Origin: Plumapathes pennacea
Lineage: Eukaryota; Cnidaria; Anthozoa; Antipatharia; Myriopathidae
NCBI GenBank assembly: GCA_964036295.1
Contig: OZ038462.1
Span: 28,395,759-28,459,758 of the forward strand
DNA length: 64,000 nt
Reading direction: 5' to 3'
A program made the translations under genes and the position numbers. The notes below the pieces were generated by a model, which saw nothing but the letters and a program-made list of their open reading frames with translations, was not told the origin of the DNA and did no database searches. Positions 12,544 to 60,607 of this stretch are shown here, in pieces (position 1 is the stretch's first letter; every line of letters begins with the position of its first letter).

Positions 12544-12659
12544 CTAGTTTCTCATCTTTCCTTGGGCTAGTCTTTCTGCTGATGTGCTGTTGTCAGGAAT
12601 TACAGTGAGGTCCGAGTCTTGCCCTGGGTCTGAACTAGTGTGAGATACATGGCACATTT
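12544..12659 (-). CDS. Gene B exon 7: short C-terminal tail
   Basis: The proposed terminal exon is 116 nt (37 residues plus TAG). A long T-tract and GATAG acceptor precede AAATG; phase 1 fits the transferase exon. The gene C copy (36936-36821) has the same length, acceptor, frame and stop codon position. The tail is hydrophilic (HTSSDPGQDSDLTVIPDNST). The frame is kept despite about nine amino-acid differences in 37, which favours a real exon, but the match is short and a different last exon is possible. Confidence 0.6.
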
Positions 12660-57900: not shown

Positions 57901-60607
57901 TCTTTCTTGGATTCCAGTGCATTCTGGTAGTCACCTAGGCTGTGCTGTGTGGTGCCCAGGTTATGCAGTGACTGTGCTGTTTCCTCGTGTTCCCCCAGTA
58001 ACTTCCGTCGCATCGCCAAAGCTTCCTTATTTGATTCAAGTGCATTCTGGTAGTCACCTAATGTGTATTGTGTGGTGCCCAGGCTGTGCAATGACTGTGC
58101 TGTTTCCTTGTTTTCCCCCAATAGCTTTTGTCGTATCACCAAAGCTTCCTTATTTGATTCAAGTGCATTCTGGTAGTCACCTAATGCGTACTGTGTGGCG
58201 CCAAGGTTATGCAATGACTGTGCTGTTTTCTCGTGTTCCCCTAATAATTTTCGTCGCATCGCCAAAGCTTCTCTCTTGGATTCCAGTGCATTCTGGTAGT
58301 CACCTAGGGTGTGCTGTGTGGTGCCCAGGTTATGTAGTGACTGTGCTGTTTCCTCGTGTTCCCCCAGTAACTTCCGTCGCATCGCCAAAGCTTCCTTATT
58401 TGATTCCAGTGCATTCTGGTAGTCACCTAATGTGTATTGTGTGGTGCCTAGGCTGTGCAATGACTGTGCTGTTTCCTTGTGTTCCCCCAATAGCTTTTGT
58501 CGTATCACCAAAGCTTCCTTATTTGATTCAAATGCATTCTGGTAGTCACCTAATGCGTACTGTGTGGCGCCAAGGTTATGCAGTGACTGTGCTGTTTCCT
58601 CGTGTTCCCCCAGTAACTTTCGTCGAATCGACAAAGCTTCTCTCTGAGACTCCAGTGCATTCTGGTAGTCACTTAATGCATACTGTATTGCGCCCACGAT
58701 ATATAATGACTGTGCTGTGTCCACGTGTTCCCCAAACAGCTTCTGTCGCATTGCCAAAGCTTCCTTATTTGATTCAAGTGCATTCTGGTAGTCACCTAAT
58801 GCGTACTGTGTGGCACCAAGGTTGTGCAATGACTGTGCTGTTTTCTCGTGTTCCCCTAATAATTTCCGTCGCATTGTCAAAGCTTCTTTCCTGAATTCTA
58901 GTGCATTGTGATAGTCACCCAAACTGTGCTCTGTAGTGCCAAGGTTATGCAGTGACTGTGCTGTTTCCTCGTGCTCCCCCAGTAATTTCAGTCGAATCGA
59001 CAAAGCTTCTTTGTGAGACTCCAGTGCATTCTGGTAGTCACCTAATGTGTATTGTATGGCGCCCACGATAAATAGTGACTGTGCTGTGTCCACGTGTTCC
59101 CCCAATAGCGTCTGTCGCATCGCCAAAGCGTCCTTATTAGATTGTAGTGCATTCTTTAAGTCACCTAATGCGTACTGTGTGGCGCCAAGGTTATGCAATG
59201 ACTGGGCTGTTTCCTCGTGTTCCCCTAATAATTTCCCTCGAATCACCAGCGCTTCTTTCCTGAATTCTAGTGCATTCTGGTAGTCACCTAGGCTGTGCTG
59301 TGTGGTGCCTAAGTTGTGCAATGACTGTGCTGTTTCCTCGTGTTCCCCCAGTAACTTCCGTCGAATCGACAAAGCTTCTTTCTGCGACTCCAGTGCATTT
59401 TGGTAGTCACCTAATGTGTATTGTATGGCGCCCACGATATATAGTGAGTGTGCAGTGTCAACGTGTTCCCCCAATAGCTTCTGTCGCATCACCAAAGCTT
59501 CGATATTAGATTCTAGTGCATTCTGGAAGTCACCTAGTGTGTATTGTATGACACCCAGGATATGCAGCGACTGTGCTGTGTCGACGTGTTTGCCCAATAA
59601 TTTCCAGCGCATTGTGAATGCTTCTTTATTGGACGCCAGTGCATTCTGGTAGTCGCCTAAGGTGTACTGTAGCGCGCCCATGATATGCAGAGACTGTGCT
59701 GTGAGCTCGTGTTTCCCAAATAACTTCCGTCGCGTTGCTAAAGCTTCTTTATTGGACTCCAATGCATTCTGGTAGTCACCTAGAGTATACTGTATGGCAC
59801 CCATGATGTGTAGTGATGGTGCTGTGTCCACAAGTTTCCCAAACAGATTCTTTCGCATTGCCAAAGCTTCGATGTTGGACTCCAATGCATTCTGGTAGTC
59901 ACCTAGTGTGTACTGTATGGCGCCCAGGATTTGTAGTGACTGTGCTGTGTCCACGTGTTCCCCTAATAACTTCCGTCGCATCGCCAAAGCTTCTTTTTCG
60001 GACTTCAGTGCATTTTGGTGGTCACCTAAGCTGTGTTGTGTGGTACCCAGGTTATGTAGTGACTGTGCTGTTTGCACGTGTTCCCCCAATAATGTCCGTC
60101 GCATTGCCAAAGCTTCTTTATTGGACTCGAGTGCATTCTCGTAGTCACCTAATGCGTAGTGTATTGCGCCTATGATATGTAGTGACCGTGCTGTTTCGAC
60201 GTGCTCTCCCATCAATTGTCGTTGCATCGCCAAGGCTTTTTTCTGGGACTCTAATGCATTCTGGTAGTCACCTAAGTTGTATTGTGTGGAGGCCAGATTA
60301 TCTAATGACTGTGTTGTGTCCACGTGTTCCCCTAATGTATTCCGTCGCATTGTTAGAGCTTCTTTGTTGGATTCCATTGTATTCTGGTAGAACAGCACAG
60401 CTTGTTTTTTAGTGTGAAGTTGGTGTTCCTTTTCAGTGGCCACAGACGATTCACCAAATCCTTGGGATCCCCACACAGTTTCAAACTTTTGCTCCTCGTG
60501 TGGTGAGGTGGGAAACGGTATCCGCACTTCGTTTTCTCGTCCAGGGAGACAAGGAATCTTGGGAGAAGGGCAAGATTTGGGAAGGGTAGCCGACTCTGAT
60601 CTTTGCC
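36821..60607 (-). CDS. Gene C (partial): TPR(about 84)-ZU5-UPA-glycosyltransferase gene
   Basis: Six exons in the window: 60607-49952, 48247-47727, 45518-45387, 44963-44814, 44124-42972 and 36936-36821, with phases 1,0,0,0,1 between them and an open phase-1 5' end. Summed with a 703-nt HEPN exon like those of A and B (expected right of 64000), the total would be 13,431 nt, a multiple of three, about 4476 residues. No stop or frameshift breaks any exon. The protein would be cytosolic, with a scaffold of about 84 TPRs linking an N-terminal effector to ZU5-UPA and a GT-B domain. The NB-ARC is reduced to a stub. The missing first exon is inference from phase and paralogy. Confidence 0.75.
38040..38229. 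mobile_element. TTAA-flanked GCATAA-repeat foldback element
   Basis: Flanked by TTAA at 38036-38039 and 38230-38233; the sister Helitron-like copy has the empty TTAA at 23798-23801. The arms are runs of ATAAGC hexamers and share AGAGAGCGACAGTGGCGAC. Ends read GTCCTCACTAGCGCATAAGC. Confidence 0.88.
39051..40405 (+). mobile_element. Helitron-like element (H4) nested in H5
   Basis: Starts TCCCCGAGCGAAGCG and ends TTTCTAG|T. The uninterrupted sequence in H2 (ACCTTG|TATTATTTAG near 24612) shows a clean insertion, here between G and T. Same subfamily as H3 by its basic coding remnant at about 39290-39520. Confidence 0.8.
42331..42904. mobile_element. TIR element in gene C intron 6
   Basis: Inverted ends TTCTTGGTTTGCA and TGCAAACCAAGAA. 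The gene B intron lacks it (ACATTGTGAA runs on to the exon-proximal sequence near 13550). 574 bp, no transposase motif. Confidence 0.7.
42972..44124 (-). CDS. Gene C exon 6: GT-B glycosyltransferase domain
   Basis: 1153 nt, the same total length as in gene B although a codon lost near RGILLQHIS is balanced by one gained near the donor (FSVQ versus FSK), so length has been kept. Motifs as in gene B: HGFIPGVFSDF, LIAICAPHDSP, ADLLILPFVPSGYEGFGFVG and LQALSAGLPILVS. The EX7E motif is again EX7Q. The ORF continues past the donor CAAG|GTAAGC into intron sequence; that tail is not coding. Confidence 0.85.
44667..44704. repeat. (GACT)n microsatellite
   Basis: Short run of ACTG tetramers in gene C intron 5; absent at the paralogous place. 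Confidence 0.85.
44814..44963 (-). CDS. Gene C exon 5: UPA-like module, part 2
   Basis: 150 nt, phase 0-0, acceptor GAAATGCAG, donor TCG|GTAAGT. 50 residues (VLQPKDVWIACSKRYKTFVV; ends KVNLSISS). Paralogue of 15304-15155. Confidence 0.75.
45387..45518 (-). CDS. Gene C exon 4: UPA-like module, part 1
   Basis: 132 nt, phase 0-0, acceptor TTTTTTCTAG, donor GG|GTATGT. 44 residues (EIEIRLREKGLCFVDGGQTL, then CVECNESVTVHIEL). Frame preserved relative to gene B with several conservative changes. Confidence 0.75.
45519..47726 (-). other. Gene C intron 3
   Basis: Contains an A-run of about 29 bases (45605-45633), a foldback element (45854-46085), and sequence collinear with gene B intron 3, including a broken counterpart of the 171-codon frame there. 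No exon recognised. Confidence 0.6.
45854..46085. mobile_element. Foldback element, CAATCCTGGCCA ends
   Basis: Left CAATCCTGGCCAGAAG and right CTTTTGGCCAGGATTG are inverse; GTGGGACACT and G/C-rich CCCCCTCCCCCC tracts follow inside both arms. Absent from gene B intron 3 at the matching place. Confidence 0.82.
47727..48247 (-). CDS. Gene C exon 3: ZU5 domain
   Basis: Same length (521 nt), acceptor (TTCTCGTCAG) and phases as gene B exon 3. ZU5 residues are retained: RGGEIFYFGCNVSIPAGAL, PSGVTFNYPVMVSLPV and ECKHFSAYCWMY. The donor here is GTAAAT instead of GTAAGT. Confidence 0.88.
48507..48717. mobile_element. TTAA-flanked foldback element
   Basis: TTAA at 48503-48506 and 48718-48721. Inverted ends share CAGTGTCATGAGA; the interior is palindromic around GGCGGTGGATCTGCC and its opposite arm. 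Confidence 0.82.
48864..48960. repeat. (TTA)n microsatellite
   Basis: About 32 TTA triplets with a single TCA. Confidence 0.95.
49067..49226. mobile_element. Foldback element of iterated AACATGTTG
   Basis: Ends GGCCTGTGCAAACGAACG and CGTTCGTTTGCACAGGCC, flanked by TAAA on the left and TTAA on the right. The interior repeats variants of CAACATGTTGG on both strands. Confidence 0.82.
49536..49735. repeat. Compound (TCG)/(TCA)/(TTA)/(TTATCA) microsatellite
   Basis: Graded triplet run: TCG, then CAT, then TTATCA hexamers, about 28 TTA, then TTATCA again. The symmetric hexamer-triplet-hexamer layout suggests expansion from the middle. Confidence 0.95.
49952..60607 (-). CDS. Gene C exon 2: NB-ARC stub plus giant TPR array
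   Basis: A 10,656-nt exon with 3551 uninterrupted codons. It starts after TTTCGTTTTTCAG (60610-60608) in phase 1. The first about 65 residues align with the start of the gene A NB-ARC (SATLPKSC..KIPCLPGREN; FETVWGSQGFGESS), but Walker A GFGKT has become GFGES. Right after the following strand (KKQAVLF) the frame enters a TPR unit at YQNTMESNKEAL, near 60390. About 84 units of 41 residues follow, in recognisable classes (IVGAIQYALG, LGATQYALG, LGTTQYTLG, LGTTQHSLG). The last units near 50000-50400 are diverged and one is truncated. The donor is AAAG|GTAAAT at 49952/49951. Long antisense frames exist only because the 123-bp unit lacks stops in those frames. Confidence 0.9.

Follow-up and report, generated by a model that had tools for sequence, protein, structure and literature searches.

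Genes B and C, which lie on the minus strand of a 64,000-nt window of the Plumapathes pennacea genome (contig OZ038462.1), each contain a TPR exon, a ZU5 exon, two exons at the position of a UPA domain, a GT4 exon, and a last exon, as checked base by base. Read from these exons, the chain TPR–ZU5–UPA–GT4 is one gene in both. We give about an even chance (roughly 0.5) to the reading that the family combines a large cytosolic immune-type TPR scaffold, a ZU5-UPA latch, and a retooled GT4-fold domain, with HEPN added in gene B. In this family, a subset of GT4 domains keeps the fold family, carries the same set of substitutions at the donor site, and stands behind an HFS-bearing ZU5-UPA module. If the reading is true, the release principle of ZU5-UPA extends beyond death-fold outputs.

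The exons of gene B are the following.

29417..30119, minus strand: candidate exon 1, HEPN (DZIP3-like), 703 nt, start ATG, donor GGAG/GTAAGT, phase 1
18485..23314, minus strand: TPR exon, 4830 nt, 39 units of 41 aa, phase 1 at both ends, TPR_12 E=0
17561..18081, minus strand: ZU5 exon, 521 nt, HFS motif and putative UPA start, PF00791 E 8.5e-7 (above cut-off)
15849..15980, minus strand: exon u1, UPA position, 132 nt
15155..15304, minus strand: exon u2, UPA position, 150 nt
13622..14840, minus strand: GT4 exon, 1219 nt (1153 nt from acceptor 14774), altered donor site, PF20706 E 3.1e-35
12544..12659, minus strand: last exon, 116 nt, stop TAG

All internal boundaries of gene B are AG/GT with matching phases. 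The total length is 7671 nt with acceptor 14840 or 7605 nt with acceptor 14774, in both cases a multiple of three, as the sequence-only reading had stated for the full model, and in both cases with no internal stop. The stretch skipped with acceptor 14774 (...QTNGSSPVQ) aligns to open-frame sequence of paralogues, and acceptor 14840 therefore looks better supported.

The exons of gene C follow the same order.

49952..60607, minus strand: TPR exon, 82 units of 41 aa, opening with an NB-ARC relic of 73 aa whose Walker A Lys has become Glu
47727..48247, minus strand: ZU5 exon, 521 nt, HFS motif
45387..45518, minus strand: exon u1, 132 nt
44814..44963, minus strand: exon u2, 150 nt
42972..44190, minus strand: GT4 exon, 1219 nt, PF20706 E 1.1e-33
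36821..36936, minus strand: last exon, 116 nt, stop, preceded by a 6 kb intron

The gene C chain has no internal stops, GT-AG splice sites, and matching phases. With the equal lengths of the 3′ exons, these features bear out the TPR–ZU5–UPA–GT4 part of the single architecture that had been proposed for B and C. Of the five exon lengths said to be identical in the two genes, 521, 132, 150, and 116 nt stand, and 1153 nt is more likely 1219 nt. Across their five 3′ exons, B and C share 90–94% identity, with a dN/dS of 0.52 over four of these exons (p=0.001); for the ZU5 exon alone, the test gives p=0.07. The identity, the dN/dS, and the recurrence of the exon order at paralogous loci indicate that the chain is not a chance arrangement. 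A satellite array in place of coding TPR repeats is ruled out, since the frames stay open for 4.8 and 10.7 kb. Per-position pN and pS in the TPR repeats are mixed, and we draw nothing from them.

It is very improbable that B and C are pseudogenes in decay, left over from an old receptor family. Decay would fit the absence of NB-ARC in B, its relic in C, the broken TPR frame of neighbouring gene A, and two degenerate copies (P2 and P4) among the paralogues on contig C5, but the TPR frames of B and C are open over their whole 4.8 and 10.7 kb, every splice site is intact, and dN/dS is below 1.

On contig C5, the order TPR–ZU5–u1–GT4 is present in all five paralogues, and u2 is found in three. A phase-1 donor, AGAAG/GTAAGTTA, precedes ZU5 in the four C5 copies checked. 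Seven of the eight ZU5-exon matches outside the window have a same-strand GT4 match 1.7–7.3 kb downstream (chance about 4e-4 each). For three other ZU5 copies, the 1.5 kb of upstream sequence has no TPR found. A homologue search with a joined 711-aa ZU5-GT4 query scored 5785 candidates, of which none passed. ZU5-GT4 as a separate gene is disfavoured because the TPR–ZU5 intron is short (403 nt in gene B and 0.28–0.46 kb in four C5 copies), and the phases match.

The ZU5 domain matches PF00791 with 29.6 bits (cut-off 21). The top Foldseek matches of its model are ankyrin ZU5 domains (E 2e-4), for a low-confidence model with pLDDT 56.6. The ZU5 ends in HFS, the self-cleavage motif of PIDD and Nup98, in 9 of 9 aligned copies of the same genome (the truncated C5 copy P2 left out) and in 21 of 26 database relatives; the F-S pair is present in 24 of the 26. 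Ankyrin has NVS and UNC5B has QLG at this position. The UNC5-like protein of the same genome has HFT, and no cleavage is known for vertebrate UNC5. Therefore, the presence of HF[ST] does not by itself imply cleavage. In the alignment columns shown, no conserved His is present about 27 residues before the Ser, the place of the catalytic His of CARD8 and NLRP1. Just the His of HFS itself is present there; a PIDD-type HFS carries its own His, and in Nup98, mutation of this His has a slight effect. With the exons that follow it, ZU5 is predicted to form a self-cleaving latch that would release the GT4 domain.

The UPA half of the proposed ZU5-UPA module is supported solely through a bridge to UNC5, because the Pfam UPA model misses these exons and a UPA-only profile does no better than shuffles. 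The ZU5-exon profile scores 13.2 bits against the ZU5-UPA junction exon of the genome's own UNC5-like gene (best of 5000 shuffles, 8.7). That junction exon in turn matches UNC5B (E 1.9e-6) and the start of Pfam UPA at 17.8 bits, below the cut-off of 27. With the UPA-only profile, the UNC5-like exon has a domain score of 6.1 bits, against 7.0 (sequence score) for the best of 2000 shuffles and 6.2 for the best domain among the shuffles shown from that run. Exons u1 and u2 give no Pfam match, the UPA model included, and no PDB profile match, and a PDB search with UPA alone returns none. Pfam UPA has no match in the whole genome, but none in the controls either. Accordingly, the ZU5 of the earlier proposal stands above the Pfam cut-off, and its UPA is reached, at its start, only by way of UNC5.

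The domain after UPA is GT4, not a death fold, and the PF20706 profile (GT4-conflict) gives 122 and 117 bits against a curated cut-off of 26. We compare a clade of 21 GT4 sequences (support 1.0) with 117 others. In the clade, the donor-binding Arg is replaced by Pro in 21/21, the Lys is lost in 19/21 and kept in two, and the second Glu of the EX7E motif is replaced in 21/21 (by Gln in 20). The first Glu is kept in 18/21. The usual His is present in three members, and a His three residues earlier in all 21. In contrast, the other 117 sequences keep Arg in 108, Lys in 111, the second Glu in 114, and the His in 113. Purifying selection acts on this GT4 in all six pairs tested (p 0.04 or less). 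The full set of five standard residues (Arg, Lys, Glu, Glu, His) is present in only one of six other GT4 copies in the same genome, L001, indicating that the altered donor site is not confined to copies linked to ZU5.

Because the residues that canonically serve the sugar donor are replaced, and always in the same pattern, the earlier suggestion that the output or ligand of the receptor is sugar transfer is not supported. Judged by these residues, the GT4 domain probably serves in sensing or signalling, not as an ordinary sugar transferase. The mostly kept first Glu and the invariant nearby His mean that it could be a changed but live enzyme. A search of the literature (PMC) for a published altered GT4 found none. 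We know of no test of what the GT4 paralogues of Acropora digitifera do. A working transferase, shut by ZU5-UPA and unleashed on molecules of an invader or the host like the predicted bacterial conflict GT4 effectors, is unlikely. The strength of the PF20706 match (E 3e-35), the retained Glu and displaced His, and the proposal of GT4 as an effector in the excerpts of PMC8195603 speak for it. However, the clade has replaced the second Glu and also the residues that bind the donor diphosphate (Arg and, in most members, Lys), and AceA is inactive once its matching Lys is mutated (as cited in part of PMC13104830).

In the mechanism that we propose for the latch, the TPR superhelix would bind a ligand or partner. 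The ZU5 would cut itself at HF/S, where the motif is present, and the N-terminal part and the UPA-GT4 part would remain together non-covalently. Once the N-terminal part is perturbed or broken down, the UPA-GT4 fragment would be freed and would signal, by analogy with NLRP1, CARD8, and PIDD. By sequence, the GT4 domain is without the standard NDP-sugar site, so that its role would lie in binding or oligomerisation, or would be that of a decoy, and not in ordinary glycosyl transfer. The HEPN of gene B, whose RNase motif is intact, could be a second output. We offer only tentatively the fuller account that a lineage of animal receptors retooled a bacterial-type conflict GT4 for non-canonical signalling, and that degradation of the TPR part frees UPA-GT4 from a self-cleaving latch in the manner of NLRP1, the payload being a reshaped sugar-enzyme fold in place of the CARD. 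The family resembles the FIIND proteins NLRP1 and CARD8, and PIDD, in its ZU5 with putative UPA, the F-S pair at the ZU5 end, and a C-terminal, putatively signalling part after UPA. It differs from them in having a GT4 fold for the CARD or death domain, TPR for LRR, and no His-270-type residue found.

GT4 domains fused to immune-type modules in corals are already in print, as excerpts of PMC4083563 and PMC8195603 attest. In corals, NACHT/NB-ARC proteins that carry glycosyl transferase group 1 are described in part of PMC4083563 (citing Hamada 2013), and a glycosyl transferase expansion also in part of PMC10236652. As in those proteins, so far as the excerpts describe them, a GT4-type domain occurs here in tandemly duplicated animal NLR-like genes, with TPR alongside NB-ARC; unlike them, B and C have no working NB-ARC, a ZU5-UPA between TPR and GT4, and an altered donor site. 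Kaur et al. 2021 report over 500 GT4 paralogues with variable conflict-type fusions in A. digitifera, and the same excerpts place UPA-ZU5 fusions in TRADD-N proteins of marine invertebrates and HEPN fusions in those of cnidarians among others (PMC8195603). The Pfam family (PF20706) is shared with the GT4-conflict proteins of that paper, but the order TPR–ZU5–UPA–GT4 and the donor-residue loss are not found in the part of it at hand. What is new relative to the published coral proteins is a ZU5-UPA latch, predicted to cleave itself and in this way to set free a retooled GT4.

The N-terminus of gene B has a counterpart in gene A.

8613..9315, minus strand: gene A HEPN exon, either the source of gene B exon 1 or its twin
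4447..5994, minus strand: gene A NB-ARC, intact P-loop GSPGFGKTSVA, likely the ancestral form

Among the domains named in the sequence-only reading, ZU5 and GT4 exceed their Pfam cut-offs and UPA has no match; the gene B HEPN scores 20.2 bits with PF18738, below the curated cut-off of 27, and three of five HEPN copies match at E<0.1. Its RNxxxH motif is intact (RNTTCH at residue 146, in agreement with R-x4-6-H), and R146, N147, and H151 are invariant in 5/5 aligned copies. The fold model has pLDDT 42 and gives no usable structure. From gene B to 30.57 Mb on contig C1, no HEPN is among the 23 matches listed (30 candidates scored), and none is found for gene C. Hence the HEPN N-terminus once assigned to both genes is plausible for gene B, as a splice-compatible first exon that is a 98% DNA copy of gene A's, and is not found for gene C.

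This exon is attached to gene B by splice phase only. It is quite possible, if short of an even bet, that it is a small gene of its own or a dead copy from a tandem duplication of gene A, and that the gene proper begins at the TPR exon or close to it. The A and B HEPN regions share 98.1% DNA identity across 1.1 kb, flanks included (protein, 97%), the intron to the TPR exon spans 6.1 kb, and the C5 stretch has no HEPN found and carries an early in-frame ATG in its TPR exons. On the other hand, the HEPN donor and the TPR acceptor are canonical, both in phase 1, and form one open frame, and the A/B dN/dS is 0.42, though on just 13 changes. A separate HEPN is compatible with the ZU5-UPA latch, and a start near the TPR exon may also hold for the C5 paralogues.

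DZIP3-like HEPN occurs with NACHT or NB-ARC in anthozoan NLRs (excerpts of PMC8260672 and PMC10236652; N-terminal in the latter). In this genome too, HEPN stands upstream of NB-ARC, both in gene A and at other loci; unlike these, the gene B HEPN precedes TPR–ZU5–GT4 with no NTPase. With the gene A NB-ARC as query, gene B has no match, and the 73-aa relic of gene C has a broken P-loop (GSQGFGESSVA vs GSPGFGKTSVA), in support of the earlier view that NB-ARC is ancestral, and of its loss. The TPR arrays count 39 and 82 units, and a candidate N-terminal effector, HEPN, occurs in gene B alone. The strict label NLR does not apply to B and C, because neither shows an intact NTPase (NACHT or NB-ARC). 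Gene B probably captured its HEPN first exon from the neighbouring HEPN–NB-ARC–TPR gene; it looks like a case in which a first exon passed from one receptor family to another, the intron phases of the two being compatible.

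The minus strand of the window (C1:28395759–28459758, in a genome of 290 Mb in 24 contigs) carries three related genes in a row.

9315 downwards, minus strand: gene A; HEPN, NB-ARC and TPR array
30119–12544, minus strand: gene B; exon chain checked
60607–36821, minus strand: gene C; start not found

All exon boundaries in genes B and C were examined: the internal ones read AG/GT with fitting phases, and both models contain 0 internal stops. The sequence-only reading had proposed five 3′ exons of equal length in the two genes. The 521-, 132-, 150- and 116-nt exons stand, but the GT4 exon, given as 1153 nt, is favoured at 1219 nt, again the same in both genes. 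In gene B, the shorter form would use a second acceptor (14774). We prefer the acceptor at 14840, because the paralogues, where they align with the stretch skipped by 14774, have an open frame. In gene C, 6 kb separate the GT4 exon from the last exon, which shares 92% identity with its gene B counterpart. Gene A (2355–5994, minus strand; HEPN-NB-ARC-TPR) has an intact P-loop, and its TPR frame is interrupted near 4450–4480, 3407–3461, and 2355, by either pseudogenization or assembly indels. Repeated stretches with 93–99% identity (25096–26576, 61518–63079; 23902–25098, 40402–40983, 1–1275) are common to the introns and flanks of all three genes.

Genome-wide order and short TPR–ZU5 introns bear out the proposal that a single gene extends from TPR to GT4, its splicing in B and C being predicted. 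The ZU5 exon has 10 genome matches, 2 of them within the window. Of the eight outside, seven (all but C3:14188247) are followed on their own strand, 1.7–7.3 kb downstream, by a GT4 match, an arrangement with a chance probability of about 4e-4 per copy. Because five of the seven linked copies adjoin on contig C5 (paralogues P1–P5), the linkage holds in 4/5 independent regions, the window counted. Each of the five C5 copies has a TPR array ahead of ZU5, reduced to a remnant in P2. Damage is seen in two copies (a truncated ZU5 in P2, a frameshift in P4). Exons u1 (132 nt) and u2 (150 nt) lie at the UPA position, between the ZU5 and GT4 exons; no u2 was seen in P1 or P3. In the four C5 copies checked, the TPR exon ends in phase 1 (AGAAG/GTAAGTTA), and the TPR–ZU5 intron measures 0.28–0.46 kb (acceptor read by eye). 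The intron is 403 nt in gene B and 1.7 kb in gene C, where it holds long simple-repeat stretches at 48854–49263 and 49396–49919. Between TPR and ZU5, little room is left for a promoter and a first exon. No TPR was found in the 1.5 kb upstream of three further ZU5 copies. ZU5 and NB-ARC matches occur together in a cluster at C10:3.49–3.66 Mb, where no GT4 is among the matches listed; this is perhaps another ZU5 receptor family.

The TPR, ZU5, and GT4 assignments are certain. In Pfam, ZU5 (PF00791, 29.6 bits, cut-off 21) and GT4-conflict (PF20706, 122 bits, cut-off 26) exceed their cut-offs, but the other two domains of the sequence-only reading do not: HEPN scores 20.2 bits (cut-off 27), and the u1/u2 exons match UPA by neither Pfam nor PDB profiles. 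Three of five HEPN copies have a Pfam match at E < 0.1, and all five copies aligned share the RNxxxH motif; an AlphaFold model from two sequences (pLDDT 42) is uninformative. The ZU5-UPA junction exon of the genome's own UNC5-like gene scores 13.2 bits with a ZU5-exon profile built on 35 sequences (best of 5000 shuffles, 8.7). The same exon matches UNC5B (3g5b) at E 1.9e-6 and Pfam UPA positions 2–35 at 17.8 bits, under the cut-off of 27. A profile of the UPA part only does no better than the best shuffles. The UNC5-like exon bridges the ZU5-exon profile to UNC5B and Pfam UPA; therefore, u1 and u2 are taken as the putative remainder of UPA.

The ZU5 exon of genes B and C closes with C-x-H-F-S-A-Y, in which HFS lines up with NVS of ankyrin ZU5 and, via the UNC5-like gene (L025, C7:12.32 Mb), which has HFT there, with QLG of UNC5B. 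HFS occurs in 9/9 aligned own-genome copies (truncated P2 omitted) and in 21 of 26 database homologues, the rest having QFS (2), RFS (1), HFT (1), and DSA (1); F-S is kept in 24/26. In a weak predicted model of ZU5 (pLDDT 56.6, residues 119–130 below 50), HFS lies directly ahead of a strand, and the PDB structures that it matches best are ankyrin ZU5 domains (E 2e-4). PIDD and Nup98 carry HFS, as this ZU5 does, and CARD8/NLRP1 are cleaved at SF/S (PMC3210808, in part) and require a His 27 residues upstream (passages of PMC8081665 and PMC3210808). No conserved His is present at that distance in the database-homologue alignment. The missing His and the HFT of the UNC5-like protein count against a self-cleaving latch.

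The GT4 profile search yielded 1506 proteins from 6342 candidates. In a tree of the best 120 of the 1506 and 18 own-genome copies, 21 members form a clade with support 1.0: 9/9 ZU5-linked copies read, L007, L008, and L046 (no ZU5 match), and nine database proteins. GT4 enzymes bind diphosphate through Arg and Lys and have an EX7E pair and an acceptor-domain His (R198, K203, E279, E287, and H118 in the modelled GumH complex; PMC13104830, in part). The second Glu is a ribose-binding residue, important for recognition rather than catalysis (PMC3898925, in part). Arg is present in 108/117 sequences outside the clade and is Pro in 21/21 inside; Lys is present in 111/117 and 2/21, respectively. The first Glu (116/117 outside) is kept in 18/21 and is Asp in 3, and the second (114/117 outside) is Gln in 20/21 and Leu in 1. 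The usual His falls from 113/117 to 3/21, while a His exactly three residues earlier occurs in 21/21, where 117/117 others have Gln. Fixed rather than scattered replacements, in a domain under purifying selection, point to retooling rather than decay. With donor residues replaced in a fixed pattern in the clade, the proposal of sugar transfer as output, in its ordinary sense, is unlikely. Of the six other own-genome GT4 copies, L001 alone retains the full set of five residues. Arg and the second Glu are missing from L002–L004, the His is Tyr in L005 and L006, and L006 lacks the Lys as well, so alteration is not unique to the clade. L002–L004 carry Asp or Asn at the Arg position and Lys at the second Glu, a separate change to the donor site.

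Gene structure in sequence, domain order, motifs, residue replacement, and selection are observed directly. In the mechanism we propose, TPR would bind a ligand, ZU5 would cut itself, the UPA-GT4 fragment would be set free, and its GT4 part would act in a non-canonical role; the HEPN of gene B may provide a second output. Of the testable claims, the self-cleaving latch holds the most interest.

Excerpted sources describe many coral NACHT/NB-ARC proteins that carry a glycosyl transferase group 1 domain (PMC4083563, citing Hamada 2013), more than 500 variably fused GT4 paralogues in Acropora digitifera (PMC8195603), and, in corals, both glycosyl transferase expansion and N-terminal HEPN (PMC10236652). 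TRADD-N proteins of marine invertebrates are described as fused to UPA-ZU5, with autoproteolysis predicted, and, in cnidarians among others, to HEPN (PMC8195603). Cnidarian NACHT partners include HEPN, ZU5, and glycosyl transferase, each separately (PMC8260672). In the PMC literature, we found no description of the TPR-ZU5-UPA-GT4 order or the altered GT4 donor site. The family is real and conserved.

HEPN at the N-terminus, proposed for both genes, would hold for gene B only, by predicted splicing; gene C has no HEPN match nearby. Its TPR exon starts with a 73-aa NB-ARC relic, 48% identical, with the Walker A Lys changed to Glu. Since 12 of the 23 HEPN-exon matches are followed on their own strand, at no more than 5 kb, by an NB-ARC match, HEPN-NB-ARC is the common form. 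It looks as if an older TPR-ZU5-UPA-GT4 gene recently captured a HEPN first exon to give gene B, because the HEPN of gene B is 98.1% identical in DNA to that of gene A over 1.1 kb including flanks, the C5 stretch has no HEPN match (nor an NB-ARC match), and the C5 TPR exons have an early in-frame ATG. The junctions concerned are in phase 1, which would have allowed such a capture. A HEPN match at C6:14968348 is followed on its strand, 7.2 kb downstream, by the altered-clade GT4 copy L046 (C6:14960094–14961155); between them the matches listed include neither NB-ARC nor ZU5, and the pair is possibly a second HEPN-GT4 gene.
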